In this document: piece after piece, positions 47,908 to 63,512 of the stretch
Numbering within the stretch: the stretch's first letter is position 1
Layout: the number at the start of each line of letters is the position of its first letter
Assembly: GCF_030056735.1 (NCBI RefSeq)
Contig: NZ_JASHKN010000003.1
Span: forward strand, 310,001 to 374,000
Direction: 5' to 3'
Source: Rhodococcus sp. IEGM 1409
Lineage (GTDB): Bacteria; Actinomycetota; Actinomycetes; Mycobacteriales; Mycobacteriaceae
Length of the DNA stretch: 64,000 bases
Notes under the pieces: generated by a model
What the model saw: only the letters and a program-made list of their open reading frames with translations
The model's database searches: none
Told to the model about the DNA's origin: nothing
Position numbers and translations under genes: made by a program

Positions 47908-48366
47908 ATGGCGCACATCAGCACTCTCGACTATGCAACGGAAGCGCCGCAGCGCCATGTCGGGCAACCTTTCCCGTCGCCGACGCGGACTCCGCGATTC
48001 CTGCTTCGTGGGCAAGGTGCCGTCAAGGCATCGGTGGACGGCGCGTGGTTCCCGTGGACCACGAACGTCACGGCGGAGCTTCACGATCTGATATCCGCAC
48101 TTTCGTTGCGGCTGGGGCCGATCGCGAGGGTTGCGTTCGACTGGAACACGATCAGTAGTGCGCAGCGACGTATCGACGAGGTCGACGGACTGGAAGTGCG
48201 GGGTCCGTACCCTGGCCAGCCTCACGATTTGATGTATCTCGACGACATCTACGGTCGTCAACTCGTTTTGATGATGATTCCGCCGTACACGGATCCGGAC
48301 CGTGCGTACGAGATCATGCGGCGGTTGGTGGATCCTGTCCGCAGCGAAACCTATCGGGTGCAGTGA
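47908..48366 (+). CDS. DUF5994 family protein
   Basis: Protein of 152 residues: RTPRFLLRGQGAVKASVDGA, then WFPWTTNVTAELHDLISALS and a predicted C-terminal domain with QLVLMMIPPYTDPDRAYEIM. The VDGAWWPWS-type motif marks DUF5994, a family of unknown function common in actinobacteria. AAGGAG lies ten bases before the ATG at 47908. Confidence 0.82.
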   Translation: MAHISTLDYATEAPQRHVGQPFPSPTRTPRFLLRGQGAVKASVDGAWFPWTTNVTAELHDLISALSLRLGPIARVAFDWNTISSAQRRIDEVDGLEVRGPYPGQPHDLMYLDDIYGRQLVLMMIPPYTDPDRAYEIMRRLVDPVRSETYRVQ

Positions 48367-49113
48367 GATCTTTCTGACGGGCGGGTCGAATCTTCGATTC
48401 CTGAACATGCGTCCAATTTGTCTGGTTTGATGGTTCTCGTAACCACAATCTCAGGCGCATTCCTTCCGATCAGCGCTTGGGCGCGGCAGCTTGACTCCCT
48501 GCTGTGTCGTCGGTCCGGCATGTCCACCACCCTCTCACCGTGCGTGAGCGCCAGTCTCCAAAGAAGTGCGAGACGACCAATCTGTATTGGCGCAGTGGAG
48601 CAAAACATAGCCTTGGCGATAATTGTCGCCGGAATTAATTGGAGGAAAGGCCGTTGGGGCGTCTCAGTGCGCTTTTGGACGTCAAGATCTAGTCGAAGTG
48701 CTAAGATATCGCGATCGAGCTCAGTTGGGCTTCAAAATCGACTGAGTGGCGCAGTAATGCGTGTGTGCTGTCGTGGTTCGATTCGATCTTTCGAGATTAC
48801 TGGCTGCCTGGTCTTGCAAACGAGGCCCCGGTCCGAAACGGGCCGACCTACATGCCGTCTAGCGGATCGGTTCCCGTGACCTGAGAAGAACCAAGTAGGT
48901 CAGCGCGGACTTGAAACTCCTTGATCTGAGGCTCAAGGGACTTGCCGATTTCGTACCAGGCGACACTCCAACAAGACCTAAGGGATAGCGCGCGCTGCGA
49001 TGATTCGTTTCATCGGAGTATCAAATGAGACAGACCGGTCGATGTAGATCAGGGATATTCGAGGCGTGCGGCGCACATTACCGCTACCACGTAGCCATTG
49101 TCCGTGAACGCGC
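48367..49113. other. Gene-poor stretch at island edge
   Basis: About 750 bases with visibly lower G+C and no convincing gene. A plus frame of 153 codons (48418-48879) has poor composition and no family. I see no rRNA or tRNA, and no clear inverted repeats. It separates the core pitA block from the acquired biosynthetic region. Confidence 0.55.
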
Positions 49114-50256
49114 TCACCCTTCAGGCTTGGTATCGTATCGGCTGTGGTCCGATGATTCAATCGGAACTCTCTCAATTTGGTTTTCGATCGATCGATCTCG
49201 GTTGGACGCATAGAGCTGTCTGAGGTGCTTTATAGCAAAGATTCCTGAGATTATAAATACACTTGCTGTATACCATCCGTCCGTAATGAAGTTTGTCAAA
49301 ACATCTGTCTTTGCGACTACAAGCTGGCGCGCCCACTCAGATTGTACGTCAGTGTATTCGAGTCCTTCGATAAGCTGAGTCAACACAGATTTCGGCGACG
49401 CCACCGAATTGGTGACCAGGGTCGCGATGCTGAGCAGTGCAGGGACAGCAAGAGTGCCAAGAATCGGAACATTCGTGGAACTGACAATATCGAATAGGAC
49501 TATAAAAAGGCCGGCGACGTATCCGATCACCGCACCCAAGATCGACAGATTGACGAATGCTGCAACTGTGGCTTGGCTGCTCGGGACAGCCGATGTCGCA
49601 ATGAAGTGTAGGTAGTAAAATGACAGGCAGCCCACAAAAAGACCGCCTGCAGTCCCTGCGCCGGCGCACTCTCCAAGGCGTTTCAGGCTGGCGAATACGC
49701 GGGGCCGTCCGGTTGCGAGCGCAAGCGCCGCCCATGTTGAAGTGGCAGGGACGCTGATCGCGAAAACAATCGATATGCCAAATATGGTTAATACGCTGCC
49801 AGCGTTCATGCCATCGAGTTCAGGTGTAACGATGGTCTGGATTCCTGCCGCGACCGCCAGGATGGCCGTGCCTAACCCGGTCATCGGGAGAAGGACCTTT
49901 CGTTGCCATCGACCGGTCAACCAGTCCCCAATGAGAAATTGAAGAATGTTTGAAATGGAATGACGTATCTCGTCGGTGAGTGTTTCTGTTGCTGGCAATA
50001 TGCTGCGCCCAAGCAAGTTCAGTGCCAAGTTTTTCAAGGGGCTGCGTGTTGGTTGGTTTTGTATTAGTTCGGATCTTGTAAGCAAATGCAAGATGAGGCT
50101 GGCGCAAAGTATTGCAATTGCAACAATTGCTGCGAAATTACTTCCCGTACGCGAGAGTTCGATGCGCGCGACCAACGATAAGAAGCTGACGAAGAAGACC
50201 ACGGCGATCCCGAGTCCGGCTAGAGCATCTCGTAGACTAGCGAACCGCTGCCCCAT
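49114..50256 (-). CDS. Multi-pass membrane protein of unknown family, 380 aa
   Basis: About seven or eight hydrophobic segments (LAGLGIAVVFFVSFLSLVAR, NFAAIVAIAILCASLILHLL, LLPMTGLGTAILAVAAGIQT, GSVLTIFGISIVFAISVPAT, VNLSILGAVIGYVAGLFIVL, ILGTLAVPALLSIATLVTNS, TASVFIISGIFAIKHLRQL). A soluble region with LTDEIRHSISNILQFLIGDW lies near the middle of the N-terminal half. I do not recognise it. G+C is lower than the core, matching the neighbouring cluster. ATG 50256 has no clear ribosome site. Same strand as the aurachin-like operon but 367 bases behind it. Confidence 0.65.
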   Translation of the reverse strand: MGQRFASLRDALAGLGIAVVFFVSFLSLVARIELSRTGSNFAAIVAIAILCASLILHLLTRSELIQNQPTRSPLKNLALNLLGRSILPATETLTDEIRHSISNILQFLIGDWLTGRWQRKVLLPMTGLGTAILAVAAGIQTIVTPELDGMNAGSVLTIFGISIVFAISVPATSTWAALALATGRPRVFASLKRLGECAGAGTAGGLFVGCLSFYYLHFIATSAVPSSQATVAAFVNLSILGAVIGYVAGLFIVLFDIVSSTNVPILGTLAVPALLSIATLVTNSVASPKSVLTQLIEGLEYTDVQSEWARQLVVAKTDVLTNFITDGWYTASVFIISGIFAIKHLRQLYASNRDRSIENQIERVPIESSDHSRYDTKPEG

Positions 50257-50623
50257 TTGATGCAGATCGCTGCGTTCCGGAACTTAAAGAAGGAGTAGAG
50301 AAGCGCAGACAGCAGTAGAATGGCTGTAAGTATCGTTCCCATCTATGGCGCACTTTGGTTTCGGGAAACACTTTCAGAAAGATCAGCCATGAAAGAAAAC
50401 CTGTCGTGTTATCGGTGATCGGATGACCGGCATCGGTAACCTCACTGCTTGAGATTTTGCCAAAGTAGGAGAAATTGCTGTTGAGGCTAAGGCGGATATA
50501 TTTGTTGGCAAGCCATTTACGATCGAGTAATCGGATTTTCTGAATGATCGGAAGATGTTAATTCTCCGGTTGGTTAGTTCCGTATTCTCTTCATTGCGTC
50601 AACAAAATTTATACCCGCAGCGG
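50257..50623. other. AT-rich gap after the biosynthetic operon
   Basis: About 370 bases rich in A and T without a supported gene. Several short A/T tracts are present but no strong hairpin terminator was seen. It follows the last gene of the nine-gene operon. Confidence 0.5.
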
Positions 50624-51574
50624 CTAGAGGCGGGTTGCTGTTTGAAGGGTTTCTTCCAGGTCTCGCAAGGATTCACGCGGATACAGATTGAGACGTAATG
50701 TTTCAAATCCAGAATTGAGGAGTTCTTTGATGGCCCGCTTGTTTGCGGGTGGGGTCTCGAAAAAGGTGGTGAATTCCGGGTTCAATCCCGCCGTAGTTCG
50801 TTTGTTGTTTGCGATGTCCAAGCCGTGGTCTTTGCCCGTAACTTCCGATGCTTGCTGATCTCGGAGGTCGTCCGCGAGTTGGAACGCGAGGCCGAAGTGT
50901 TCAGAGGCGTCCTCTACCTTGCTCAGATCCGCGTCACGGTCAATGACCAAGAGTCCCAGCGCAAGTGGGAGGAAGACCGAATATCGTCCAGACTTGAGGT
51001 TCGCGATGGATTGCAGCGTGGCGGGGTCTGTCTCGCCTGTTGCTGTGGCGTAGACATCGCCGAATTGCCCGATGATCATCTCTCGTCGCATCCTCGACCA
51101 CAATTGGTCGATTTTGCCGGTTTCGCGACGGACGAGGTCATCGGCGGTGGACAGGCATAGGTCGCCGGCAAGTACAGCCAGCGCGTCGCTGTGGCGGCGA
51201 AGGTTTACTTTCGAGGCGCCCTGAGCGACAAGCTCGGCCTCGACGAAACGCGATGCGGTCGAAATCCCTCGTCGCAGGTCGGCGTCGTCCATTACGTCGT
51301 CCTGCAGCAAACCGAAGAGATGCAACAATTCAATCGCGGCTGCCAATTGAACTCCGCGTTGATAGTCCCACTCATCTCGAATTCCGGTTAAGCGCATTCC
51401 TTCGAGAACGAGCATTGCGCGGAAACGCTTCCCTCCCGCACGGACGAGGCGTAGCGCGAGGTTAGATGGATCTACGGTTGCCTGAGGGTATACAGAGGAC
51501 TTGCTTTCCGGCGACAGCGCCAAGCACATCGAGTCTTCGACCTTCGCCAAGAATGATTGGGTATCGACAATCAT
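50624..51574 (-). CDS. Polyprenyl diphosphate synthase (likely farnesyl), RauI-type
   Basis: Trans-prenyltransferase of 316 residues. The first Asp-rich motif is LLQDDVMDDADLRRG, the second FQLADDLRD, and RAGGKRFRAMLVLEG binds IPP. It makes an allylic diphosphate by head-to-tail condensation; chain length is not clear from sequence. With a UbiA prenyltransferase and an IPP isomerase in the same operon it probably supplies farnesyl diphosphate for the product. ATG overlaps the idi stop (ATGA). Last gene of the operon. Confidence 0.88.
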   Translation of the reverse strand: MIVDTQSFLAKVEDSMCLALSPESKSSVYPQATVDPSNLALRLVRAGGKRFRAMLVLEGMRLTGIRDEWDYQRGVQLAAAIELLHLFGLLQDDVMDDADLRRGISTASRFVEAELVAQGASKVNLRRHSDALAVLAGDLCLSTADDLVRRETGKIDQLWSRMRREMIIGQFGDVYATATGETDPATLQSIANLKSGRYSVFLPLALGLLVIDRDADLSKVEDASEHFGLAFQLADDLRDQQASEVTGKDHGLDIANNKRTTAGLNPEFTTFFETPPANKRAIKELLNSGFETLRLNLYPRESLRDLEETLQTATRL

Positions 51575-52164
51575 TGCCTATCTCCTTGCGTTGGTTGCCA
51601 TTCCGATGAGAATCTGGATTCTAGAAACACCTCGCTGGTGAGGAGGGTATCCAGCACAGTCGAAAACCAAGCTGACACGTTCCGACCGGCGCATGCCTCC
51701 TGCAACTGTTGCGGGGTGACCAGTTCGGTCGCTGCGACTTCATCAGGGTTGGGTGCAACTGTGCTTCCGATGGTGCCGAAGAGCACATGGTTGAGTTCCC
51801 ACTCAGTGAGGTCGGACGCAGAGTCATCGAATCGGTACTCGACGGTGCCTGCCTCAGTGAGATCGATGACCTGCACGTTCAGTTCCTGCTGCAATCGAAG
51901 TGCGGCATCTCCCAGAACGGAAGACTTCGAAAGTGGATGTCCGCAACATGAATTCGACCAAACGAGAGGCCAATGGTATTTCGTTGCAGCCCGTTGCTGC
52001 AGCAGGAGACGGCCGTCAAGACTGAACATGAAGACTGAGAACGCACGATGCCGGACGCCTCCATCCTTGTGGGCGTGAAGTTTGTCCAGGATTCCCAGGT
52101 CCGAGCTGGCGTCGTCGACTAGGCGAACGTGACGGCGAATGTCCAAATCAGGCTCAAGCTTCAT
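51571..52164 (-). CDS. idi: Type I isopentenyl-diphosphate isomerase, RauH-type
   Basis: Nudix-fold enzyme of 197 residues converting IPP to DMAPP. HRAFSVFMFSLDGRLLLQQR opens the Nudix core, WSNSCCGHP contains the catalytic Cys, LRLQQELNV has the metal-binding Glu, and EWELNHVLFGTI follows the family pattern. ATG 52164 overlaps the end of the exporter gene by eleven bases. A pathway-dedicated copy that raises the allylic precursor supply. Confidence 0.9.
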   Translation of the reverse strand: MKLEPDLDIRRHVRLVDDASSDLGILDKLHAHKDGGVRHRAFSVFMFSLDGRLLLQQRAATKYHWPLVWSNSCCGHPLSKSSVLGDAALRLQQELNVQVIDLTEAGTVEYRFDDSASDLTEWELNHVLFGTIGSTVAPNPDEVAATELVTPQQLQEACAGRNVSAWFSTVLDTLLTSEVFLESRFSSEWQPTQGDRQ

Positions 52165-53638
52165 AGCGGAACAACCTCTCCTTTGCCGATACGAGCCATA
52201 CGACAAGTGCGACGATTACAACGGCAGCCGAGAGCGTCACTACGAGATCCCATGCTTCGACGAACGCTGTGGCGAGGGTGAGGCTGTTCGAAGGATCGGC
52301 TTCGGCGTTTGACTGCATTTGATCGATGTCGACGCCCAACGACGAGTTGAGGCGATGCAGGAAAACAGATCCGAGGAATGCGACTCCGCAAGCTACGCCG
52401 AGTTCTTGGAGTGTATTTCCTGTTCCTGAAGCCATGCCCGTGGTTTCTTCGGGGACCAATGCTGCGGTGCCTTCGGCCCGCAGGGGGCTGAATATCCCCA
52501 ACCCGACGCCGGCGACGACAAATCCTGCGATGAGAATCGTCCACGTGCTGTCGGGGGCGAGAAGTCGCAGTAGAGCTAACCCAGCCGCGAGCATGACGAG
52601 TGACAGCGTGACTGCATTCTTGCGACCGAGCGCGGTTTGCAGTGGCATCGCCAGGATGGATCCGACGAGAAGCGCACCAGTGAGCACCATCAGTCTGAGC
52701 CCGGTTGCGATCGGATCGAGGCCGTTGACGATTTCGAAGTACAAGACAGAGATCAGGATGAGTGGAAAGACGGCAAGGTACACAAGCAGTGTCACTATGT
52801 TGATGCCGACGAATGTGGGGTTGCGAAAGAGGCCCAGGTCGAGCAGTCGCATTGTGGGCTGTCGTTGCATCACGACGAACGCTGCGAAGACCGAAAGTGT
52901 GACGACGATCCCAGTAAGGATCGATGGGTGTGTAAGTCCCATGTCATAGGCATGCGTGAGAACGAATACGAGGGAGAACATCGATATACCCAGTACCGTC
53001 GCGGACAGTAGTCTTCGCGCAACCTGCTGTTGTGGGTCTCCGCTCGACTTGCATGGAATCAGCACGGCAGCAACGAGTATCATCGCAGGCACATTGATCC
53101 AGAAGATCCATTGCCAACTCCAACTCAGCAATACGCCACCAATGATCGGCCCAGCGGCAAGTGCGATACCAGAAGCGCCGCCGAAGATGCCGAACCCGAT
53201 CGTTCGTTTGTCCTGGGCAAAGTTTTGAACGATCAGAACTGGAATTGAGGCGAGTAGGGCAGCGGCGCCTATGCCCTGGCATCCGCGGGAAACGATCAAA
53301 GGCAGCACGCTGGTCGAGAGTGCTGCGAAGGTTGATGCCACCGCGAATATTGCTGCGCCAGTGATCATCACGGTCCGAGGACCGAATCGGTCGGCGCATA
53401 CTCCGAAGAAGAGCAGCACGCCGGCCATCGAGGTGGCGTAGGAGTCGAGTATCCATTGCAGATCGGTGAAGGTGGCGCCGAGGTCATTTTGCAGCGGTTC
53501 AAACGCCACATTGATGACGGTCAGATCAAGAATGAGAAAGAACGTCGCGACCAGGATTGCAACTCCTGCTGCTACCGGTCGTGGACCCGGATCAGTCTTT
53601 GACAATTCGGGGGTTCTGGAAGCTGGTTGCGTTGTCAT
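52154..53638 (-). CDS. MFS drug exporter, 14-TM DHA2 type, RauG-type
   Basis: Proton-driven exporter of 494 residues with about fourteen membrane segments. LDLTVINVAFEPLQNDLGAT (motif D1), WILDSYATSMAGVLLFFGVC, ADRFGPRTVMITGAAIF (motif A) and GIFGGASGIALAAGPIIGGVLL (motif C, antiporter) mark the EmrB/QacA group. Probably exports the antibiotic and gives self-protection. ATG 53638 overlaps the stop of the adenylation gene (ATGA). Confidence 0.9.
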   Translation of the reverse strand: MTTQPASRTPELSKTDPGPRPVAAGVAILVATFFLILDLTVINVAFEPLQNDLGATFTDLQWILDSYATSMAGVLLFFGVCADRFGPRTVMITGAAIFAVASTFAALSTSVLPLIVSRGCQGIGAAALLASIPVLIVQNFAQDKRTIGFGIFGGASGIALAAGPIIGGVLLSWSWQWIFWINVPAMILVAAVLIPCKSSGDPQQQVARRLLSATVLGISMFSLVFVLTHAYDMGLTHPSILTGIVVTLSVFAAFVVMQRQPTMRLLDLGLFRNPTFVGINIVTLLVYLAVFPLILISVLYFEIVNGLDPIATGLRLMVLTGALLVGSILAMPLQTALGRKNAVTLSLVMLAAGLALLRLLAPDSTWTILIAGFVVAGVGLGIFSPLRAEGTAALVPEETTGMASGTGNTLQELGVACGVAFLGSVFLHRLNSSLGVDIDQMQSNAEADPSNSLTLATAFVEAWDLVVTLSAAVVIVALVVWLVSAKERLFRYEA

Positions 53639-55758
53639 GATGCGTTCTCCTTCATGGCAGGAGTAGGTGCGTGAGCGATGAGGGCCGCAGCTTTTGCAGG
53701 GTCTGTGATCGGGAGGTAATGGCCACCGCGACTGACGATCTGTTGGCGGTGACACATCGTGACCGGGGCCACGGTTGAAATCGGATCGTCTTCCATGGTG
53801 ATTTCTAGATGAGTCTGCATGTTGGTCAGAGGCTTTCGCAGTTCGGTCATCAAGGAAGAAGCGAGTGTCAGGTCGTTCGTAACGCGGCGGCGCGCCCGGT
53901 TCAGAGCAGCGGGAGATGCGATGAGTCGGGACATCAGCATGTGCTCGGTATGTTGTATCAATTGTTCTTGATGGACGGAGGTAAGCGTGACTGGGGGCGG
54001 CGCACAGGCGATAACGATTCGATCGGCAAAGTGATCGGGATACTTGTCCTGAGCTAGACCGAGCAATGCAACTCCGAGGCTGTGGCCGAGCAAGATATCT
54101 CCGGCCTGTGTTTCCGACAGCACGTACTCGGTGATCGTTCGTGCGACTCTGTCCAGGTCGGACAGTTGCTGTAAGTCGTATTCGATCACTGCGACCCTCA
54201 TGTCCAGATGGTCCGCGAGACCGACATATGGTTCCGCGCTTGTGCCCGCGCAGGGCAGGACCACCAGAGTCGAGTCGAATCGTGAAGAGAGGTCGCGCCA
54301 CCGCAGACGAGAACCGACGCGGCGCTCCAACAAGCGATGGCAAGCACCACGATCGATCTTGCCGGTACTGGTGAGAGGAATTCGAGGCACAGAGACACAA
54401 ATATCTGGAACCAGGTGTGAATCGAGCGCAGTAGACAAGGCACTGCGGGTTGCTTTGCTCAGATTTGTGACCGGTTCGTTGGCGTTGTTGTCTGCGACTC
54501 CCATTACGAGACGAGGTGCCGATACTCCATCGAGAGTGATCTCTGCGACTACAGTTTCGATGGAAAGCACTTCTCTTGCAGCGTTTTCGACCTCAACAGG
54601 GGAGAAGAGTATCCCGCCACGATTCAGTAAGTCGTCAGCGCGGCCCAGTATGGCGAACCCTCGCCCCGATGGCTGGACTGCGTCGCCACTGATAAACGTG
54701 TTCTGTTGGAGGCGTGCATGGTCGGATTCTGGGGCGACGAGGTACCGAGAAGAAGCCATCGGCCCCAAGATGGTGAGTAGGGGACGGTCGGATCCACCTG
54801 GGTCGGTCGCGGTAGTGAGAGTTGTGGTGGGCAGGGCAGTAAACCCCGCATCGGTCGAGCGTCGCGTCGCAACTATGTGTAGAACTTCGGTCGCGCCGTA
54901 TCCGTCGATGACTTGACCACCGATGTGGGCTTCGAGTTCTTGCCGCAGATTGTCGGGCAGAGGTTCACCTGCAGAAACTGCGGTTGACAGTCCAGCGAGG
55001 TCATGGCTGGCGACTGTGTGTCGAGATCGCCGTGCAATGGCTGCCCAAATTCGCGGTGACAGTGCAGCAATGCCAACCTTGTGTGCGACGAGTGTCGATA
55101 TCAACTCATCGGTCGCTGTTGGCTGATTCCAAAGCACTGCCGTCGTGCCGGTGAGCAATGGAATCAGGACCGAGTTTCCAAATCCGTACCCGAAGCTCAG
55201 GTCTGCAGCGGTCAGAATACGGCTATTCGGTGTTGCGCCGTACAGTGCGGGGATGGTCTCGGCAAATGCACGGAGGCCGCTCTCGTAGTGGCCAACTACT
55301 TTCGGCTTCCCTGTACTCCCGGACGTTAATTGCCCGAACTTCAGACGGCGGTCTCGATCGAGCGGCGAAATCTGACCGTCTCCGATGTAACGGATGTCGG
55401 GATTGCCGTCCGTGAGTTGAAGCGTTGCGGCCGCGCCAATCGATTCCGCGAGCGTCGACAGCTTTCCCTCCGCCATGGGCCGGCCGACTATGGGCACCGC
55501 ACCGCACCTCCACAGCCCGCATAGTGCTTCGATCCACGCCATGGTGGTGTGCGCGGCGCATAAGACGAGATCACCGTTCTTGATGCCGGTGGAGGAAAGG
55601 GTGAGCTGCCACTGATCGACTCTCGCGACGAACTCGCCAGCTGAGATTTCACGTCCACACTCGTCGACGTACAGGATCGCCGAGTTGGATGTCGGGACTG
55701 TGGGCAATGACCATAGCCATAGAGCGAGATCAATTGTTCGGGAGCTGGATTCAGTCAT
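53635..55758 (-). CDS. Adenylation-thioesterase fusion, probable anthranilate-activating enzyme, RauF-type
   Basis: Protein of 707 residues. Residues about 1-470 are an ANL adenylation domain (LTSGSTGKPKVVGHYESG, IDGYGATEVLHIVATR, ISGDAVQPSGRGFAILGRAD, LTSTGKIDRGA). An alpha/beta-hydrolase domain follows with no carrier domain between: LVVLPCAGTSAEPYVGLADH, nucleophile ILLGHSLGVALLG, and His in VSRGGHYLPI. In aurachin synthesis anthranilate is activated and loaded on a separate ACP; this enzyme would do that, and the thioesterase may release or proof-read. Substrate is inferred from cluster type. Confidence 0.85.
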   Translation of the reverse strand: MTESSSRTIDLALWLWSLPTVPTSNSAILYVDECGREISAGEFVARVDQWQLTLSSTGIKNGDLVLCAAHTTMAWIEALCGLWRCGAVPIVGRPMAEGKLSTLAESIGAAATLQLTDGNPDIRYIGDGQISPLDRDRRLKFGQLTSGSTGKPKVVGHYESGLRAFAETIPALYGATPNSRILTAADLSFGYGFGNSVLIPLLTGTTAVLWNQPTATDELISTLVAHKVGIAALSPRIWAAIARRSRHTVASHDLAGLSTAVSAGEPLPDNLRQELEAHIGGQVIDGYGATEVLHIVATRRSTDAGFTALPTTTLTTATDPGGSDRPLLTILGPMASSRYLVAPESDHARLQQNTFISGDAVQPSGRGFAILGRADDLLNRGGILFSPVEVENAAREVLSIETVVAEITLDGVSAPRLVMGVADNNANEPVTNLSKATRSALSTALDSHLVPDICVSVPRIPLTSTGKIDRGACHRLLERRVGSRLRWRDLSSRFDSTLVVLPCAGTSAEPYVGLADHLDMRVAVIEYDLQQLSDLDRVARTITEYVLSETQAGDILLGHSLGVALLGLAQDKYPDHFADRIVIACAPPPVTLTSVHQEQLIQHTEHMLMSRLIASPAALNRARRRVTNDLTLASSLMTELRKPLTNMQTHLEITMEDDPISTVAPVTMCHRQQIVSRGGHYLPITDPAKAAALIAHAPTPAMKENAS

Positions 55759-55801
55759 TCTTGGCTTCTCTGATTGGAGTTTCCCATCGACGACATATTG
55801 C

Positions 55802-56332
55802 TCATTCAGACACCGCAAGTACTGAGACAGCGGCGACGACCTGGCTTTCTGTTGAATAGCTGTAGCCAGACAGCATGATGTCGGTGGTCGAACTTCGTAA
55901 GTACTGGTGTGCGAACCACACATGGTGGTCGTGGAACGGTCCGAAGATCGACAGACAAGGACCTGTCATCGCATGTTCGGTCGCCAAGTAAGCCAGAATG
56001 CCATTGGCCCCGCTCACAGGACCGGACGCGGCGATCGATCGTTTGCGCGAGGCGCCAAGTCTGCTAATTACATTGAGATAGTGATCGGAACCCGATGTCG
56101 AGGATGCCCACACAGCTCCTACTCGGAGCCCAGACGTGTTGACAACACTGAGCGCGGTTCTGACTGCAAGTGCTGCGACCGATTGCTCAGTGCGATCAGA
56201 TAATTCGCACACAGACCCAAAGTCCCCGTGCGGCTCAACTTCAATGTTCACACAGTCACTGTCCGGGTCGGTCACTGCAGTGACGTATCCGATGACAGCA
56301 ATCGGGACTTGCGCGATTGTGGTGACGTTCAT
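55802..56332 (-). CDS. Short ketosynthase-like protein (KS-beta/CLF position), RauE-type
   Basis: Protein of 176 residues that resembles only the N-terminal half of a ketosynthase fold: VRTALSVVNTSGLRVGAVWA and GANGILAYLATEHAMTGPCL. The usual TACSSS nucleophile region reads TGPCLSIFGPFHDHH and the C-terminal His motifs are absent. It sits where a chain-length factor is expected and overlaps the KS gene start-to-stop, so it probably pairs with that KS. Half the size of a normal CLF of about 400 residues. Confidence 0.72.
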   Translation of the reverse strand: MNVTTIAQVPIAVIGYVTAVTDPDSDCVNIEVEPHGDFGSVCELSDRTEQSVAALAVRTALSVVNTSGLRVGAVWASSTSGSDHYLNVISRLGASRKRSIAASGPVSGANGILAYLATEHAMTGPCLSIFGPFHDHHVWFAHQYLRSSTTDIMLSGYSYSTESQVVAAVSVLAVSE

Positions 56333-57492
56333 GGTGCTCCTATTACGACCGCTGCCACAGACCCGCCGAAACCGAATGAGGTTGACAGCACATAGTTATT
56401 GTCAGCGAGCGGTACAGCAGAGCAGGGAACTTGCACGTGGGCAAGCTTCTCAATACCGCTCTCCAGGGTGGAGATGGTCTTATTGGGAGGGGCAACACCC
56501 TCTCGAAGCGAGGTGACTGCGACGACGGTTTCGATCACCCCTGCCGCGCCCTGACCATGTCCTGTTGTTCCTTTGATCGATACCACTGGTACGCGATCGT
56601 GCCGCGCGGAGAATATTCGGTCGTACGCGCTAGCTTCGAGTGCGTCATTGGCGCGAGTTCCTGTGCCGTGGGCGCAGATCCACCCAATATCATCGACCGT
56701 GATAGAAGCGGACGCGAGTGCATCTGTGATTGCGATGGAAAGCCCCGTCGCGGTAGGCGAAGGGGCGACGAGGTTCCATCCGTCGCACGCTTCTCCATAC
56801 CCGGCAATGCTGGCGAGTGGTTCGTTCGCAAATTCTGGGGGTTCAACGACGACAACGCCGAACCCTTCACCGGGCATCATTCCTCGCCGGTCGGCGTCGA
56901 ATGGGCGAACCATGTCATCATCGCTCAAACCACCGAGGGCTAGGAACAGGGTCAGCACTTCATAAGAAAGAACCTCCGCACCAAGGCATATGACCATATC
57001 CGCCCGCCCAGATGAGATGAGGGACTGCGCGAGTCCGATGACGGTAGTTCCTGCAGCACAGCCAGATCCGATTCCGATCACGTCGACATGTCCGCCGAGG
57101 AACGCCGCTACTGCTGCGATATCAGAGTCAAGGGCGGTCCGCACTCCCTCAGCTGCCGAAGTCCGGTCGCTGCGGTCATGGTCCGGGCGAGAGCCCATGA
57201 CCGTGGACAGGAGAACTACAGGCCGATGGCGTTCCACATCTTCGTCTGCAGCGATGATCCTGTTACGGATCGGACCCAATGCCTCCTGCAGTAGGGACTC
57301 GAACAGATACTGATCGCCCTGTGCTTCGCGGGCGAGTACATAAGCGCGATAGTCGCTGTCGTGTCCGATCCCGGGAATGCGGCCCGCCTCGATAGGATCG
57401 CCGAAAAGCATTCGCTTCCAAAGCGTGTCGCGACTGTCGCAACCCGAGGTTCGACATTCTGCATAGGTAATCTTCGACGCCAAACTCAACAC
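56329..57492 (-). CDS. Beta-ketoacyl synthase (KS-alpha), RauD-type
   Basis: Type II ketosynthase of 387 residues. Nucleophile Cys145 in GIGSGCAAGTTVIG, His275 in CAHGTGTRANDALEA, Lys307 and His312 in SIKGTTGHGQGAAGVIE, and a C-terminal STSFGFGGSVAAVVIG. All four catalytic positions are kept. In the aurachin pathway it would extend anthraniloyl-ACP with two malonyl units to the quinolone. GTG at 57492 overlaps the ACP stop, and its end overlaps the KS-like gene. Confidence 0.9.
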   Translation of the reverse strand: MLSLASKITYAECRTSGCDSRDTLWKRMLFGDPIEAGRIPGIGHDSDYRAYVLAREAQGDQYLFESLLQEALGPIRNRIIAADEDVERHRPVVLLSTVMGSRPDHDRSDRTSAAEGVRTALDSDIAAVAAFLGGHVDVIGIGSGCAAGTTVIGLAQSLISSGRADMVICLGAEVLSYEVLTLFLALGGLSDDDMVRPFDADRRGMMPGEGFGVVVVEPPEFANEPLASIAGYGEACDGWNLVAPSPTATGLSIAITDALASASITVDDIGWICAHGTGTRANDALEASAYDRIFSARHDRVPVVSIKGTTGHGQGAAGVIETVVAVTSLREGVAPPNKTISTLESGIEKLAHVQVPCSAVPLADNNYVLSTSFGFGGSVAAVVIGAP

Positions 57493-57734
57493 TGCGAGCC
57501 TGCCGCGGCCTTGGATTGGATCAATTGCTGCAACTGCAGCAGCGTGAGGACTTCATCCGCCTCACTGTCGGATATAGAGATCTCGTACTTGTCCTCGAAG
57601 TATCCGTAGACTGCGATCAGATCGAGTGAGGAGAGCCCGAGATGGTCGTGTATGTGGTCCTCATCGGCAAGATCACTGGCTTGCAGACCCGTGGTTTTCG
57701 CTACGATCGCTCGGAGCTCATCGTCAATCGTCAT
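57486..57734 (-). CDS. Acyl carrier protein, RauC-type
   Basis: Discrete carrier of 82 residues: MTIDDELRAIVAKTTGLQ, then DHIHDHLGLSSLDLIAVYGY, where Ser36 in LGLSS is the phosphopantetheine site (the common motif is LGxDS; here Ser replaces Asp). Four-helix length is normal. ATG 57734. It would carry the starter and growing chain for the KS pair. Confidence 0.92.
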   Translation of the reverse strand: MTIDDELRAIVAKTTGLQASDLADEDHIHDHLGLSSLDLIAVYGYFEDKYEISISDSEADEVLTLLQLQQLIQSKAAAGSQC

Positions 57735-57747
57735 GGTGATCCTTTCA

Positions 57748-58809
57748 TCAGGCGAGGGAATCGACGGCGTCGTTGGTTGGGGAGTGACGAGGCCACAGAA
57801 GCGCCGACATATGAGACGCAGACTTGCGTGACAGGTGCTTATTCCAGTGCGCCAGAAGCGATATCAGGACCCACGCGATAACGCAGGCTCCTGCGACGAG
57901 AGCAAACCGCCAGGACTGGTTCACTGCAATGCCGATGCTCACCACGGACGCCATTGTGACTAGGTAAACGTGCTCGCGGACTGCGATTGCGTCGGCAGGA
58001 GTACGAGCGCGCCGTACACCGAGAATGACGGTGACCTCGCCTGCGGCTATGACGGAATATGCGAGAAATGCGGATAGTCCGACCTGCGTGACAGTAATTG
58101 CCGCGACCGTGAACTGCACTAGTGCCGTGATGAGAACGGTCCGCCCAGCGCCGTTCTCCACAGCAGTTAGCCAGACCGACCGATAGCCGATCAAGGTGTC
58201 ACCGCGGCGATCTGTGAGGTCTTTTGCTCCAGCGATTATGACTGAGACCGTCGCCAGCAACACCGCGACTGCGCCCGCTACCCGCCACTGTTCCGAGGAA
58301 AGCGTTCCGTTGCCGGCAGCGAGGCCAGTCACCCACGGCATGACGAGTGTTGCAGTCAATAGTGCGATAGTGGCACCCGGATATCGTTTGGTCATCCTGC
58401 CGAACGAATAACCGATACCAATAGTGATATTGACGACCAGAACGACAGCTAGGGCCGTCTTCGACGGTGCGTCGCTAGGGTTCAGTGTCACCATTGCAGT
58501 GGAAAGGAGCATGACCGCGAACCACGCTACGAATGTTGCTCGACGCAGACCACGGGTCCCGAAACTCAACGCCCATCGTGTACGCAGCGGTTGATTGATT
58601 CGATCAGCGGGAAGATCTACCAGTCGGTTGAGCCATTCTACGGAGACGCAGAACGTAATCCAGTAGATAATCCACAACAGAAGATGTGGTGGCGCTTCGT
58701 GCGCGACAAAGTAGCTGCCGGAAAGGAACCCGGCAATATACAGGGCAGAGAATCGGGGCGATCCGGTTCTGACGAACTGGGAAGCGCGACTCGCCAGCGG
58801 TGCGGACAT
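57748..58809 (-). CDS. UbiA-family membrane prenyltransferase, RauB-type
   Basis: Intramembrane aromatic prenyltransferase of 353 residues with about eight or nine membrane helices. The first Asp-rich motif is NRLVDLPADRINQPLR and the second AGAKDLTDRRGDTLIG; together they bind Mg2+-prenyl diphosphate. In the aurachin pathway the matching enzyme adds farnesyl to C-3 of 2-methyl-4-quinolone. Lies two bases after the P450 gene. Confidence 0.92.
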   Translation of the reverse strand: MSAPLASRASQFVRTGSPRFSALYIAGFLSGSYFVAHEAPPHLLLWIIYWITFCVSVEWLNRLVDLPADRINQPLRTRWALSFGTRGLRRATFVAWFAVMLLSTAMVTLNPSDAPSKTALAVVLVVNITIGIGYSFGRMTKRYPGATIALLTATLVMPWVTGLAAGNGTLSSEQWRVAGAVAVLLATVSVIIAGAKDLTDRRGDTLIGYRSVWLTAVENGAGRTVLITALVQFTVAAITVTQVGLSAFLAYSVIAAGEVTVILGVRRARTPADAIAVREHVYLVTMASVVSIGIAVNQSWRFALVAGACVIAWVLISLLAHWNKHLSRKSASHMSALLWPRHSPTNDAVDSLA

Positions 58810-58811
58810 TG

Positions 58812-60047
58812 CTATCGGCTTATCGCTACGGAAAGTGTCTCTGGACCGCGTAACCCCATGCCAGGCTTGTAATTGATTGGCTCTGCAACTTCGAGGGAGC
58901 GGTACCGTTGCGAGAGTTCGCGTAGAAAGTGCTGAAGCATCGAGTTTGCCAGTGCCGAGCCGAGGCAGTGATGGATTCCACGCCCGTAAGAAAGTGAAGA
59001 CACATCACGGCGCGTGACTGAGAATGTGTCTCCGCGCTCGACTGCTTCTCGATTTCCGGAGGCAAGAAGGACCATGACGGCGTCACCCTTAGTGATATTT
59101 GCGCCACTTACCTCGCAGTCCTCCAATGCGATTCGCCCAGCTTCGTGCGCCGGAGGCTCAAAACGGAGCACCTCTGCCACTGCATTCTCAATGAACTGTG
59201 GGTTGGCGCGTACCTGTTCGAACTGGTCCGCGTGACGGGAGAATGCGATCAGCATGTTGCCGATCGTGTTGGAGGTCGTTTCTTGTCCGGCAACCGTGAT
59301 CAGGAGACACGTCGCTGCGATCTCGTCAACGCTGAGCTGGTCACCGCCGTGACTGACTTCGGACAGCCGCCGGACAAGGCCCTCAGGCGCTTTGCCGGAT
59401 GTTGCGAGAGTTCGGAAGTAGTCGATTGATTCTTCGATCGCGGCAGAGCGGCGATCGGCGACTTCTTTTGGAATCGCGAAGTTGATATCAAGTACGCCGG
59501 CCACGAGATTTGACCATTCGGAGAATCGCCCGCGATCTTCGTCCGGAATACCCAATATTGATGAAAGTACCTCTACAGGAAACGGTTCCGCAACCTCGGA
59601 AACGGCGTCCTTGCAGTGTTCGAGATGTCGAACCGCTGATGAGGCCGCGGATAGGACGATGTCGTCCATGGAAGTTGTCGTACTACGGGTGAAGGCATCG
59701 GAGACGAGGCCCCGCAGCCGCGTGTGTTCGGGTGGATCTGTGAGCATGAAAGGGCGGGCGTCGCCGTCGATGCCGAGACCAAGGAATGGTGGCATGTCTT
59801 CGCCCATCATCGACACCAGATGGTCGAAGAAGGTGGAGTTGGCGAAATCCTTGCCGAATGATCTGCTTCGAAGCACCTTGTCGCACGACGCATAGTCAGC
59901 AACGATCCAGGCGCCAAGCGCTGACCGATGTATTGGAAGCTCGGCGCGCAATCTTGCATAGACCGGGTACGGGTCTGCCTTGAAGGTTGGATCGAAAGGA
60001 TTGACAGCGAGAGCGAGATCGCCCGTATCGTCGACTGTGTGTGTCAT
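58812..60047 (-). CDS. Cytochrome P450, probable quinolone N-hydroxylase, RauA-type
   Basis: Soluble bacterial P450 of 411 residues. I-helix VAGQETTSNTIGN, ExxR in AEVLRFEPP, and haem loop SYGRGIHHCLGSALA with Cys361; the usual first Phe of FGxGxHxCxG is Tyr. RauA of the aurachin RE cluster was reported to N-hydroxylate the quinolone, and this gene holds the same first place. ATG 60047 has a GGGGGAAAC ribosome site. Redox partners are not in the window. Confidence 0.9.
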   Translation of the reverse strand: MTHTVDDTGDLALAVNPFDPTFKADPYPVYARLRAELPIHRSALGAWIVADYASCDKVLRSRSFGKDFANSTFFDHLVSMMGEDMPPFLGLGIDGDARPFMLTDPPEHTRLRGLVSDAFTRSTTTSMDDIVLSAASSAVRHLEHCKDAVSEVAEPFPVEVLSSILGIPDEDRGRFSEWSNLVAGVLDINFAIPKEVADRRSAAIEESIDYFRTLATSGKAPEGLVRRLSEVSHGGDQLSVDEIAATCLLITVAGQETTSNTIGNMLIAFSRHADQFEQVRANPQFIENAVAEVLRFEPPAHEAGRIALEDCEVSGANITKGDAVMVLLASGNREAVERGDTFSVTRRDVSSLSYGRGIHHCLGSALANSMLQHFLRELSQRYRSLEVAEPINYKPGMGLRGPETLSVAISR

Positions 60048-60120
60048 GTTTCCCCCTGGGTGGATCAATGTGTGCCGTCGCGCTGCCGCGCGAGCCCGCG
60101 ATGACGAAAAGCGAAGGAAC

Positions 60121-60213
60121 TCAATCGGTTACAAGCCGGTAGATCACGTAAAAACCGAACCAGGCGATTGCAGCGCAAGCAGCGACAAGGAGGATGTCGA
60201 AGAAGATGACCAT
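60121..60213 (-). CDS. 30-residue single-pass membrane peptide ahead of the operon
   Basis: ATG 60213 to TGA 60121 gives a 30-residue peptide starting MVIFFDILLVAACAAIAWFG and ending with a short basic-acidic tail (YRLVTD). GGGGG lies eight bases before the ATG. An in-frame ATG at 60228 would add five residues. The central 20 residues are a clear membrane helix with an N-terminal Asp. It is 73 bases before the P450 gene and probably on the same transcript. Family not recognised. Confidence 0.6.
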   Translation of the reverse strand: MVIFFDILLVAACAAIAWFGFYVIYRLVTD

Positions 60214-60293
60214 GAAGCGAGCCCCCATCCGTTTAATTCATGGAGAACAAATCTCAGAATGAATCTGGTTGTGTGCCTGTGGATATAACCACA

Positions 60294-60311
60294 TCGCAAC
60301 ACGAGTTGCAA
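60294..60311. promoter_or_regulatory. Possible TetR operator in the divergent promoter region
   Basis: GCAAC-ACGA-GTTGC inside ATCGCAACACGAGTTGCAAT is a short inverted repeat about 80 bases before the TetR start and 80 after the membrane-peptide start. Placement fits a shared operator; the short arms make it tentative. Confidence 0.35.
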
Positions 60312-60384
60312 TAAATCCATTGCTTACCCCTGATCGACGAAGCAAGCTAGGACCAAAGTCCCGAGAGTGAGGAGAACGAACCCG

Positions 60385-60948
60385 TTGGTTAAACGCAGAG
60401 GAACGCACGTGACCACGGCGGTGCTCGATGCGGCCGCCAAGCTGATCGCCGAGGATGGCTACGACTCGGTTACGGTTGCTCGTATCAGCAAGCTCGCCGA
60501 TGTCCATCCGACCTCGATCTACCGTCGCTGGCAAACGCTCAACAACATCCTTGCCGAGGCCGTCTACAACATTGTCGAGGACGATGCCCCGATCCCCGAT
60601 ACGGGCGATGCTCGAACAGATCTCATACAGTTCTGTCAGACATTGAGAGACTTTATGGGGACTGCGGTTGGACAATCTCTGGCCCGCCAAGCCATCGAAC
60701 CGGTCGACAGTGACGATATGGCCGAACGGAGGCGGGAGTTTTGGCAGAAACGATTCACTGCGGCCGGTACGATCATCCACCGCGGAATAGAGAATGGTCA
60801 GATCAGGAGAGATATTGATCCAGGGCAGGTTCTCGGGTTAGTGACGGCGCCACTTCACCTTGAGGTTCTTCTGGATGAAGCTCAGGAGCCCGTCAATATT
60901 GAGGCGAATGTGGGTATCATTTGGAGGGCGATCGCGTCGAGTGAATGA
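60385..60948 (+). CDS. TetR-family regulator of the biosynthetic operon
   Basis: Regulator of about 187 residues. HTH: TTAVLDAAAKLIAEDGYDSV, then TVARISKLADVHPTSIYRRW. The C-terminal domain (MAERRREFWQKRFTAAGTII) is TetR_C-like with large ligand-pocket potential. TTG 60385 with GAGGAG ten bases upstream is preferred; in-frame GTG at 60367 is possible. Divergent from the operon, so probably its repressor, perhaps responsive to the product. Confidence 0.85.
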   Translation: MVKRRGTHVTTAVLDAAAKLIAEDGYDSVTVARISKLADVHPTSIYRRWQTLNNILAEAVYNIVEDDAPIPDTGDARTDLIQFCQTLRDFMGTAVGQSLARQAIEPVDSDDMAERRREFWQKRFTAAGTIIHRGIENGQIRRDIDPGQVLGLVTAPLHLEVLLDEAQEPVNIEANVGIIWRAIASSE

Positions 60949-61221
60949 TTCTGTTGACGGTGAGCTTGGTCCAGTTGGAACATATGGACTGATGGGGTTT
61001 CTGACCGTGGCAGTGAATCGATGAGCCGGATGCTGACGCGGCCGTGTGGCGTTCAATCGGGGAATGCCACACTGCCGCTCTCCGGGGCGACTCAGATAGG
61101 GCAGCTTTCTGCCTATCGATTGGTCTGTTCGTCAGTGCCCGGAATTCTCTAAACACTTGTCGCCCACTCCGCCGGGAACGAAAATTTCTTCAGGCTTAGG
61201 GCACAGCCCAGTTCGATAACA

Positions 61222-61851
61222 TTGCTGGTCAGGATAGTTTTCTCCCGGATACGCTCGAACGGTGACTTCTATACAAGACTTCATGATGCTCGCACGCATA
61301 TCGGCTTCAGTCAGCGAGAGGTTGCAGCGATATCGGGCGTCTCCGAATCAACCATCCGCCGCGCGGAGTTGGGCGAATCGAATGTCTCGATCGTTGTGTT
61401 CAATCAGTTGATGTATGCGGTCGGTGTCAAACATGCTGGCTTTTGCGACTACTCCGCGATGGTGGCGGCACATTTTGTTCTGGGGGACACAGCAGTACGG
61501 CTCAGTGATGCTGCCAGCGAGTGGATTACGCGTTGGCGGAAGATAGGAACCGCAGCGGACGATGTCTCAGGGTTCAGGACGATCCTTCGAACAGCCGGAT
61601 ATGCGGCAAGGATTTTGGATCGACCGCGGAGAGAGACGTATCGCGGTCCTTTGCGTCCAAGCCAGATCTTCTCCAGACTCCGCGAGTTGCAACAGTCTGA
61701 CAACCTGAATTGGGCGGTCACCGGTGCGGACGGCTTGCCGATGATCTACGTATCGGATCCTCCGCTGGCGTTGGAACGACTCAATGACGTTGGGGGCGGT
61801 AGTAATCGACGATCACGCTTCTGGGAGGGTGTGACGTTACTGGATGGGTGA
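61222..61851 (+). CDS. XRE-type helix-turn-helix protein, 209 aa
   Basis: The N-terminal Cro/CI HTH reads LHDARTHIGFSQREVAAISG, then VSESTIRRAELGESNVSIVV. The C-terminal ~130 residues (DAASEWITRWRKIGTAADDV, RGPLRPSQIFSRLRELQQSD) are of unknown fold. TTG at 61222 is the longest start; a shorter form is possible. Located between the biosynthetic cluster and the IS21 element, typical of mobile-region regulators. Confidence 0.65.
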   Translation: MLVRIVFSRIRSNGDFYTRLHDARTHIGFSQREVAAISGVSESTIRRAELGESNVSIVVFNQLMYAVGVKHAGFCDYSAMVAAHFVLGDTAVRLSDAASEWITRWRKIGTAADDVSGFRTILRTAGYAARILDRPRRETYRGPLRPSQIFSRLRELQQSDNLNWAVTGADGLPMIYVSDPPLALERLNDVGGGSNRRSRFWEGVTLLDG

Positions 61852-61900
61852 ATGCCAGTGTGCGTGGACGTATATCAGCAGTGGGGACAAGGTGCGGTCT

Positions 61901-62059
61901 ATGGACGAGATACAGACGGTGATCGACATGTACTCAGCCGGTCAGATAGACGCAGCAGATAGGCGTGCGAACACCATTCATGCGAGATCGTTCGCCCACT
62001 GGGAAGGACGCGGGTCAGGACTGGTTCGTCGTGCCCGCGAGACAGGAGAACAAGCGTGA
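61901..62059 (+). CDS. Small hypothetical protein, 52 aa
   Basis: MDEIQTVIDMYSAGQIDAAD followed by an Arg/His-rich end. ATG 61901 has GACAAGG upstream; an in-frame ATG at 61844 that overlaps the HTH gene stop would add 19 residues. Its stop overlaps a GTG (GTGA) of the next short frame. Family not recognised; could be part of a mobile-element remnant. Confidence 0.4.
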   Translation: MDEIQTVIDMYSAGQIDAADRRANTIHARSFAHWEGRGSGLVRRARETGEQA

Positions 62060-62260
62060 GTCGCAAGCGTCATGCAGAAATCGTCGACTGGGATAAACCT
62101 GATGGCAACATCGGGCAGTGGCTGGTCAGAGGAGAAACGTGCGTACCTCGCTGCGATCATCGAGGGTGAGGGCGGTGGCCTGGTGGATTTTCGAGATCAG
62201 GTTCCTCCGTCAGGCTCGGTGATTCATTCCCGGCAGATCGAACTGCAGGAGTGGACCTAG
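62056..62260 (+). pseudogene. Short frame-shifted gene remnant
   Basis: GTG 62056 opens VSRKRHAEIVDWDKPDGNIG and QWLVRGE, then hits a stop at 62169. A shift near 62130 joins it to EKRAYLAAIIEGEGGGLVDF and on to TAG at 62260. The two halves make one plausible protein of about 67 residues. Family not recognised. It may be a degraded mobile-element cargo gene. Confidence 0.35.
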
Positions 62261-62549
62261 GACTCGGCAGATATTGTTGCGCAGCTTCGGATCCCGAAGG
62301 AGCGGCCATGCCCTGAACGGCATGATCCTGTCTGATTTCGCCAATCACCCACTCACATACCTCTGGACAGTTCATCGATCGGATCGTTGCGACAACGTCT
62401 TCGTTCGAGATGCGACCTCTCGCGGTTCGGAGTTCTGGTCGGGCCACCCATTCGTCGGCGTAGTCGATCACGGCGTGCGTCATGTCTGCGACAGTTTCCG
62501 CAAGAGTTTGTTTACCCGACAAAAGGCCGAGATCTGGTGCGATGACCAC
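62157..62549 (-). CDS. Doubtful minus-strand reading frame
   Basis: An open frame of 130 codons starting GTG with VVIAPDLGLLSGKQTLAETV, then MTHAVIDYADEWVARPELRT. Composition of the first half looks coding, but the second half (SPRSTPAVRSAGNESPS) does not. It overlaps the remnant on the plus strand. No family recognised. Confidence 0.25.
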   Translation of the reverse strand: MVIAPDLGLLSGKQTLAETVADMTHAVIDYADEWVARPELRTARGRISNEDVVATIRSMNCPEVCEWVIGEIRQDHAVQGMAAPSGSEAAQQYLPSPRSTPAVRSAGNESPSLTEEPDLENPPGHRPHPR

Positions 62550-62702
62550 ACGCGCGCCGTTTTCATCGAGGAAGACCTCAAAGCCGGTGAACTGATAGCC
62601 GGCGGCAAGTGTAGTGAGAAATGTTCTCTGTCAATGGCCAAGATGAAGTCCACGCTGGTGGCCAAGTAGAAGTCTCCACCCCGTGTTGATGTTTTCGGTT
62701 GG

Positions 62703-63512
62703 TCAGGGGCGGTCCTTTCGGTGTTGTGCGTCTTTCATGCGGTAGGACTCGCCGTCGGTGACGACGACGGTGGCGTGATGGAGCGACCGGTCGAGGATCA
62801 TCGCCGCGGTGGTGTGCTTGGGCAGACATCGACCCCACTGCTCGAACGGCCAGTGCGAGGCAATCGCCAAGGATCGGCGCTCGTAGGCGCCGGCAACGAG
62901 CCGGAAGAGCAGTTGTGTTCCGGTGTCGTCGAGCGGCGCGAATCCCATCTCGTCGACGATGATGAGATCGACGCGCAGTAGCGATTCGATGATCTTGCCG
63001 ACGGTATTGTCGGCCAGACCGCGATACAATTTTTCGATGAGATCGGCGGCAGTGAAGCAGCGGACCTTGTACCCGGCGTGGATCGCTGCGACGCCGAGTC
63101 CGATCAGGGTGTGCGACTTCCCTGTTCCGGCGGGCCCGATGATCGCCAAGTTCGATTGCGTCCGAACCCATTCGAGACTCGACGGTAGTCGAAGACTTTT
63201 GGCTGAATCGACGACGCAGCGAGATTGAACGATTCCAGCGTCTTCGTCACCGGAAACGCCGCCGCTTTGAGTCGGTTGACGATGTTCGAGGCATCGCGGG
63301 CCGGGAGCTCGGATTCGATCAACGTCCGCAGGACCTCCGCCGGTGTCCACCGTTGGGTCTTGGCGGTGAGCAGCACTTCGGGTGCGGTCCTGCGGATCGT
63401 GGCGAGTTTGAGCCGCCGCAGCCCGCGTCGAGACCAACCGCCAGATCGGGAACCTGTTGCGGTCCAACGGTAGTAGGTCTGCTCGCTTGTCCTCGATTTT
63501 GGTGTCGGTCAT
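62703..63512 (-). pseudogene. istB: IS21-family IstB helper ATPase with two compensating frame changes
   Basis: The C-terminal part is a good IstB ATPase: Walker A AIIGPAGTGKSHTLIGLG, Walker B VDLIIVDEMGFAPLDDTG, and ASHWPFEQWGRCLP. The N-terminal IstB sequence (LRRLKLATIRRTAPEVLLTA, then KTQRWTPAEVLRTLIESELP, ASNIVNRLKAAAFPVTKTLE) is in a different frame between about 63190 and 63420, with the original frame on both sides. The main frame stays open for 269 codons but the middle is scrambled, so the protein is probably inactive unless these are read errors. ATG overlaps the istA stop. Confidence 0.8.

Follow-up and report, generated by a model that had tools for sequence, protein, structure and literature searches.

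A rau-type aurachin operon in Rhodococcus sp. IEGM 1409 with a half-size RauE and a predicted tenth gene

We analysed 64,000 nucleotides (nt) of Rhodococcus sp. IEGM 1409 (contig NZ_JASHKN010000003.1, positions 310,001 to 374,000; hereafter the window) and found on the minus strand, at 50624-60047, nine open reading frames (ORFs) that very probably constitute a rau-type aurachin operon and so represent, in another Rhodococcus strain, the system known as rauA-rauI from Rhodococcus JCM 6824. The cluster itself is ordinary, being a new copy of an already known system; the parts worth follow-up are a short RauE and a tenth ORF. The nine ORFs encode, in order, a cytochrome P450, a prenyltransferase, an acyl carrier protein, a ketosynthase (KS), a KS-like protein, a ligase/transferase, an efflux protein, an isopentenyl diphosphate isomerase and a farnesyl diphosphate synthase (Table 1). 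Spacings computed from the coordinates are gaps of 2 nt (A-B), 13 nt (B-C) and 43 nt (E-F) and overlaps of 7 nt (C-D), 4 nt (D-E), 4 nt (F-G), 11 nt (G-H) and 4 nt (H-I). This is the published order of rauA-rauI (Table 1 of PMC10295502). Across the nine proteins, Pfam matches over cut-off are to p450, UbiA, PP-binding, ketoacyl-synt N and C, AMP-binding, MFS_1, NUDIX and polyprenyl_synt. A preliminary description made from the letters had proposed nine closely packed genes on one strand and had likened their order to rauA-rauI. Both points are borne out, with all nine ORFs present and a family match for eight of them. Its end of the cluster at 60213, however, is not the start of the P450 gene (60047) and instead marks the start of a separate 30-codon ORF (60213-60121).

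The P450 of the window is identical to PDB entry 3WEC at 400 of 411 residues, counted on the printed alignment. We take 3WEC to be the RauA structure; its entry in the PDB table reads merely Cytochrome P450. The paper describing the RauA structure is cited in PMC4192391. A second Rhodococcus genome (G012) encodes a P450 equal to 3WEC at 411/411 residues and carries the same nine genes, whose products are 93-99% identical to those of the window (Table 1). No frame among the nine is broken in either genome, and the ratios of nonsynonymous to synonymous divergence (dN/dS) are 0.03-0.25. The aurachin RE-type reading is thus supported by the P450 identity, the published gene order, eight of the nine protein families, the match to G012 and the relatives of RauF. 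The low identity to RauA-RauI that the preliminary description had counted against an aurachin-type cluster is not what we found, either for RauA against 3WEC or for the other eight proteins against those of G012. Between the window and G012, rauA-D have diverged more at synonymous sites (0.145-0.178) than rauE-I have (0.052-0.085), and the operon may therefore be a recombinant mosaic of which part has been exchanged. With proteins 93-99% identical to those of G012, this second rau operon should help to show which residues of the nine enzymes are essential and which are neutral.

Gene content, order, identity and open frames are direct observations, while each chemical step and the product we infer from published work on the homologous cluster. 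In that work, RauF loads anthranilate, RauCDE make two malonyl additions, RauB farnesylates and RauA performs N-hydroxylation, and the route to aurachin RE needs a further monooxygenase, a side-chain hydroxylase outside the cluster (PMC10295502). By analogy, RauF would activate anthranilate and load it onto the carrier protein RauC, and RauD with RauE would add two malonyl units to a chain that would cyclise to 2-methyl-4-quinolone. RauH and RauI would supply farnesyl diphosphate and RauB would attach the farnesyl group, after which RauA would hydroxylate the ring nitrogen, RauG would export the product and an enzyme encoded outside the cluster would hydroxylate the side chain to give aurachin RE. 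The divergent TetR regulator would control the operon.

Instead of aurachin RE, the product could be an analogue, such as one whose prenyl chain differs in length or that lacks the side-chain hydroxyl, because RauB and RauD have the lowest identities to their G012 counterparts and have thus diverged furthest. The location of the side-chain hydroxylase outside the cluster (PMC10295502) speaks for this alternative, as does a marine Rhodococcus with a similar cluster that was annotated by mass spectrometry as producing many aurachin-like compounds (PMC11433410). Nevertheless, the prenyltransferase keeps 93% identity at a dN/dS of 0.21, with no sign of altered function, and we consider an analogue possible but rather unlikely.

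The starter unit bears on a more distant alternative, a non-quinolone prenylated aromatic made from a benzoate-type starter. The closest solved relatives of RauF are benzoate-CoA ligases (PDB 2V7B, E = 1.4e-32), followed by the anthranilate-CoA ligases 5OE3 (E = 6.5e-18) and 4WV3 (E = 1.7e-16), and the nearest NCBIfam profile, below cut-off, is the benzoate-CoA ligase family. A benzoate starter is nonetheless scarcely credible given a P450 near-identical to the quinoline N-hydroxylase and a nine-gene order that is that of rau. In the printed alignment with 2V7B, SFGYGFGN of RauF stands opposite FFAYGLGN and ATEVLHI opposite STEMLHI, with the Tyr and His conserved; these residues of 2V7B presumably line the acid pocket. 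Since anthranilate-CoA ligases are among the matches and the Tyr and His of 2V7B are kept, the predicted pocket of RauF does not exclude anthranilate, nor does it prove it. The misfit to anthranilate that the preliminary description had named as telling against its reading was therefore not seen.

Several observations weigh against the rau-type reading. The chemistry is predicted from the genes, and the sole comparison to a published rau sequence is that of RauA, with RauB-RauI compared to the proteins of G012, whose other eight genes presumably equal those of JCM 6824. The C-terminal (transferase/thioesterase) half of RauF has no Pfam match over cut-off, and in the PDB its 216-residue C-terminal stretch matches alpha/beta-hydrolases weakly, in the region of GHSLG (best E = 0.0033); of the proposed adenylation-thioesterase, the AMP-binding part thus has a Pfam match over cut-off and the putative thioesterase part this weak match. 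RauE has no Pfam or NCBIfam match over cut-off and no PDB match at E ≤ 10, is not significantly similar to RauD by BLASTP or by profile comparison, and yields an AlphaFold model (from two sequences) with a mean predicted local distance difference test score of 42.6, which decides nothing.

Of the parts of a minimal type II polyketide synthase (PKS), RauC is a discrete acyl carrier protein, and RauD conserves Cys145, His275 and His312 at positions aligned with solved ketosynthases, as in a KS-alpha with a Cys-His-His active site. No full-length KS-beta (chain length factor) partner was found, RauE having 176 residues in both the window and G012. Scored against a profile built from RauD and 19 ketosynthase-fold sequences of fetched loci, 20 in all, RauE reaches 5.4 bits. 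Of 2000 shuffles, 13 score as high, and 1803 appeared in the output. By hhalign, residues 17-167 of RauE are colinear with the N-terminal half of a ketosynthase (P = 0.0064, probability 5.9%), and the active-site SACASG of the template stands opposite FGPFH of RauE, which has no Cys. Based on the profile score and the colinear, Cys-free alignment, RauE may be a degenerate half of a ketosynthase, the N-terminal half at best, a weakly supported reading. The gene called KS-like in the preliminary description is thus present as an ORF, but its product has no family match over cut-off in Pfam or NCBIfam. A RauE of half the size of a ketosynthase is an unusual feature of a type II PKS that can be put to the test, and a catalogue that demands a chain length factor match (e.g., PMC10132072) might overlook clusters of the rau type.

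The original description of the rau cluster is reportedly that of Kitagawa et al. in 2013. The cluster of JCM 6824 (BGC0001075) has nine genes that agree with those of the window in order and in the functions assigned to them (PMC10295502), and differs in strain, in 11 RauA substitutions if 3WEC is the RauA of JCM 6824, and in host genome size (7.02 Mb in JCM 6824, PMC4192391; 6.10 Mb here). Compared by description, the sau cluster of Streptomyces sp. NA04227 likewise activates and loads anthranilate with a single enzyme, uses a P450 for N-hydroxylation and has a prenyltransferase and a type II PKS, but differs in a separate thioesterase gene, methylerythritol phosphate-pathway genes, two P450 genes and the product, aurachin SS (PMC10295502). 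The aua system of Stigmatella aurantiaca Sg a15, compared in the same way, shares an anthranilate-primed type II PKS and a farnesyltransferase, but has a Rieske N-hydroxylase, three loci and a separate ligase and acyltransferase (PMC10295502).

Aurachin RE is counted among the known rhodococcal antibiotics (PMC5550956), its cluster has been reported in R. qingshengii JCM 6824, JCM 15477 and IGTS8 (PMC7358434), and four gene clusters of the aurachin family were found among 616 Rhodococcus genomes (PMC11433410). In our searches, RauB occurred in 2 of 28 genomes of the genus (the window's own and G012) and in 2 of 394 of the class, the own genome included; the other class member is a 28% match beside which no aurachin genes were recognised by eye. 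RauF was full length in 2 of 401 genomes of the family, again including its own, and aligned partially in 24 others, none among the matches listed extending beyond residue 476. Among 396 genomes of the phylum, RauE matched its own and gave eight marginal matches (E = 7.9e-4 to 7.4e-3). Scans of genome contigs with RauE (39 pattern stretches) and with the RauF alignment (88) confirmed no named relative, and near records may be missing from them.

The operon lies in a low-GC block, with a G+C content in 1-kb steps of 0.50-0.59 over 48001-62000 against mostly 0.59-0.67 (lowest 0.570) in the rest of the window. Positions 48624-62627 match G012 at 95.3%, and the left flank, up to 48552, matches four genomes (G001, G002, G012 and G013) at 93-94%; the divergence of rau from G012 is therefore close to that of the flank. 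In G013, about 0.7 kb separates the counterpart of 61222-62627 plus 65008-65534 from a 70-bp piece that matches 48551-48620. With the intervening 12.6 kb missing, the G013 locus resembles a rau-free form of this site. The 70-bp piece, which marks the left border of the missing block, recurs twice in that genome, on two contigs at 96-97% identity, and ARAGORN found no tRNA in it. The segment 62628-65007, at the window's end and beyond it on the same contig, has no counterpart at the corresponding sites of G012 and G013 and carries an IS21 IstB gene (62703-63512). Because the surrounding region is variable and an IS21-type insertion lies next to it, the cluster could be silent or decayed and yield no product, which we think improbable in light of the nine frames open in both genomes and their dN/dS of 0.03-0.25. 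A plasmid origin was not supported: at megablast sensitivity, the 10.2-kb region matched none of 72,556 plasmid records, a set from which near records may be missing.

The 30-codon ORF lies 73 nt before rauA and differs from its G012 counterpart at four positions, all synonymous, an outcome expected by chance in about 0.3% of cases (taking ~21 of the 90 sites as synonymous, a figure back-calculated by hand). Its start is uncertain: upstream and in frame, another ATG occurs 5 codons away in the window and 9 codons away in G012. The purely synonymous differences suggest that the operon has a predicted tenth translated gene in addition to the facing TetR gene; neither is in the published table of the rau cluster (PMC10295502), the table being all that was compared.

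The predicted microprotein, a putative membrane protein, belongs to a family of single-helix proteins with the consensus MVIFFEVLLVLAS..I.WF..YV.YRLVTD. Relatives at E ≤ 10 occur in 28 of 28 genomes of the genus, each with at least one at E < 1e-4. A 16-row profile at E ≤ 0.001 recovers 183 of 201 genomes of the family, in 29 of 31 genera, and in the phylum 13 of 296 genomes, 4 of them outside the family. Neither the microprotein nor four relatives has a Pfam match over cut-off (the best being DUF7248 for one relative, E = 0.0015, below cut-off), and the single NCBIfam match of the family is far below its own. No paper was found for YRLVTD; among the papers listed, none describes the family, as judged by titles and abstract openings, and none deals with aurachin self-resistance, as judged by title.

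The 47 genus matches at E ≤ 0.002 comprise 28 conserved copies, one per genome, and 19 extra copies. Around conserved copies (45 distinct fetched loci, 1.5 kb reach, searched with proteins of the own genome, so that distant relatives may escape), rhodanese and DUF1416 genes lie nearby in 27 loci and cydCD in 15, with both kinds in 10 and neither found in 13. In the own genome (L088 7254-15529, G000:C11), the conserved copy follows rhodanese and DUF1416 genes and is convergent, at ~0.9 kb, to ATP-binding cassette transporter ORFs, taken as cydDC, next to cydA and cydB. Seventeen of the 19 extra copies were fetched (G006:C6 and G012:C1:4670612 were left out), and 11 of these, the two rau copies included, have a divergent TetR gene no more than 160 nt away, as found by tblastn using two TetR proteins of the same set as queries. 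These 11 are not independent, since they group into about five sets whose loci are orthologous or nearly identical. The TetR assignment is confirmed by Pfam for the window gene and for six others tested. Among the six copies without a tblastn hit, one (L102) has a TetR-like protein by eye, and the remaining extra copies have other neighbours, such as a metal-ATPase-like gene in L098 and L100 (by eye). Given the divergent TetR gene in 11 of 17 extra copies, a TetR-microprotein pair seems to stand ahead of the rau operon, and pairs of this kind occur elsewhere in the genus where rau is lacking.

Speculatively, and with little probability in our estimation, the microprotein would be a recruited paralogue of the family-wide conserved one and would form with the divergent TetR a portable regulatory or self-protection module for the producer of a respiratory-chain inhibitor. 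If so, it could act on or shield respiratory membrane complexes, an idea that stems from cydCD within 1.5 kb in 15 of 45 loci and from the inhibition of cytochrome bd by aurachins (PMC10295502). Counting against the module, the own-genome copy and the cyd genes are convergent and not one operon, rhodanese and DUF1416 genes are commoner neighbours than cydCD, and TetR-linked copies elsewhere had no adjoining aurachin genes recognised by eye. A role as a cytochrome bd subunit was dropped on the mixed neighbourhoods and survives within the speculative idea above.

Table 1. Genes of the putative aurachin operon and its upstream neighbours, with residues identical to G012 (stop codons excluded)
Feature	Position	Strand	Length	Identical to G012	Evidence
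rauA, cytochrome P450, predicted quinolone N-hydroxylase	58812..60047	-	411 aa	400/411	Pfam p450; haem-binding SYGRGIHHCLG; 400/411 to PDB 3WEC
rauB, putative UbiA-type farnesyltransferase	57748..58809	-	353 aa	328/353 (93%)	Pfam UbiA 51.7 bits (cut-off 34.2); NRLVDLPAD motif
rauC, acyl carrier protein	57486..57734	-	82 aa	81/82	Pfam PP-binding
rauD, ketosynthase (KS-alpha)	56329..57492	-	387 aa	367/387	Pfam ketoacyl-synt N + C; Cys145, His275, His312; PDB ketosynthase matches
rauE, ketosynthase per published cluster annotation, here at best a degenerate N-terminal half	55802..56332	-	176 aa	171/176	No profile match over cut-off
rauF, AMP-forming aryl ligase with C-terminal alpha/beta-hydrolase-like domain	53635..55758	-	707 aa	688/707	Pfam AMP-binding; GHSLG; PDB matches to benzoate- and anthranilate-CoA ligases
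rauG, MFS exporter (DHA2-like)	52154..53638	-	494 aa	485/494	Pfam MFS_1; top NCBIfam model efflux_EmrB, below cut-off
rauH, isopentenyl-diphosphate isomerase	51571..52164	-	197 aa	191/197	NCBIfam NF002995 + TIGR02150 over cut-off, named isopentenyl-diphosphate delta-isomerase; Pfam NUDIX
rauI, polyprenyl diphosphate synthase (farnesyl synthase in published table)	50624..51574	-	316 aa	307/316	Pfam polyprenyl_synt
Tenth ORF, predicted single-helix microprotein ahead of rauA	60121..60213	-	30 aa		4 synonymous, 0 nonsynonymous differences to G012
TetR regulator facing the operon	60367..60948	+			Pfam TetR_N + TetR_C_11 over cut-off

Downstream of rauI, a 380-residue ORF (49114-50256, minus strand) has no Pfam or NCBIfam match over cut-off, and its frame is broken in G012.

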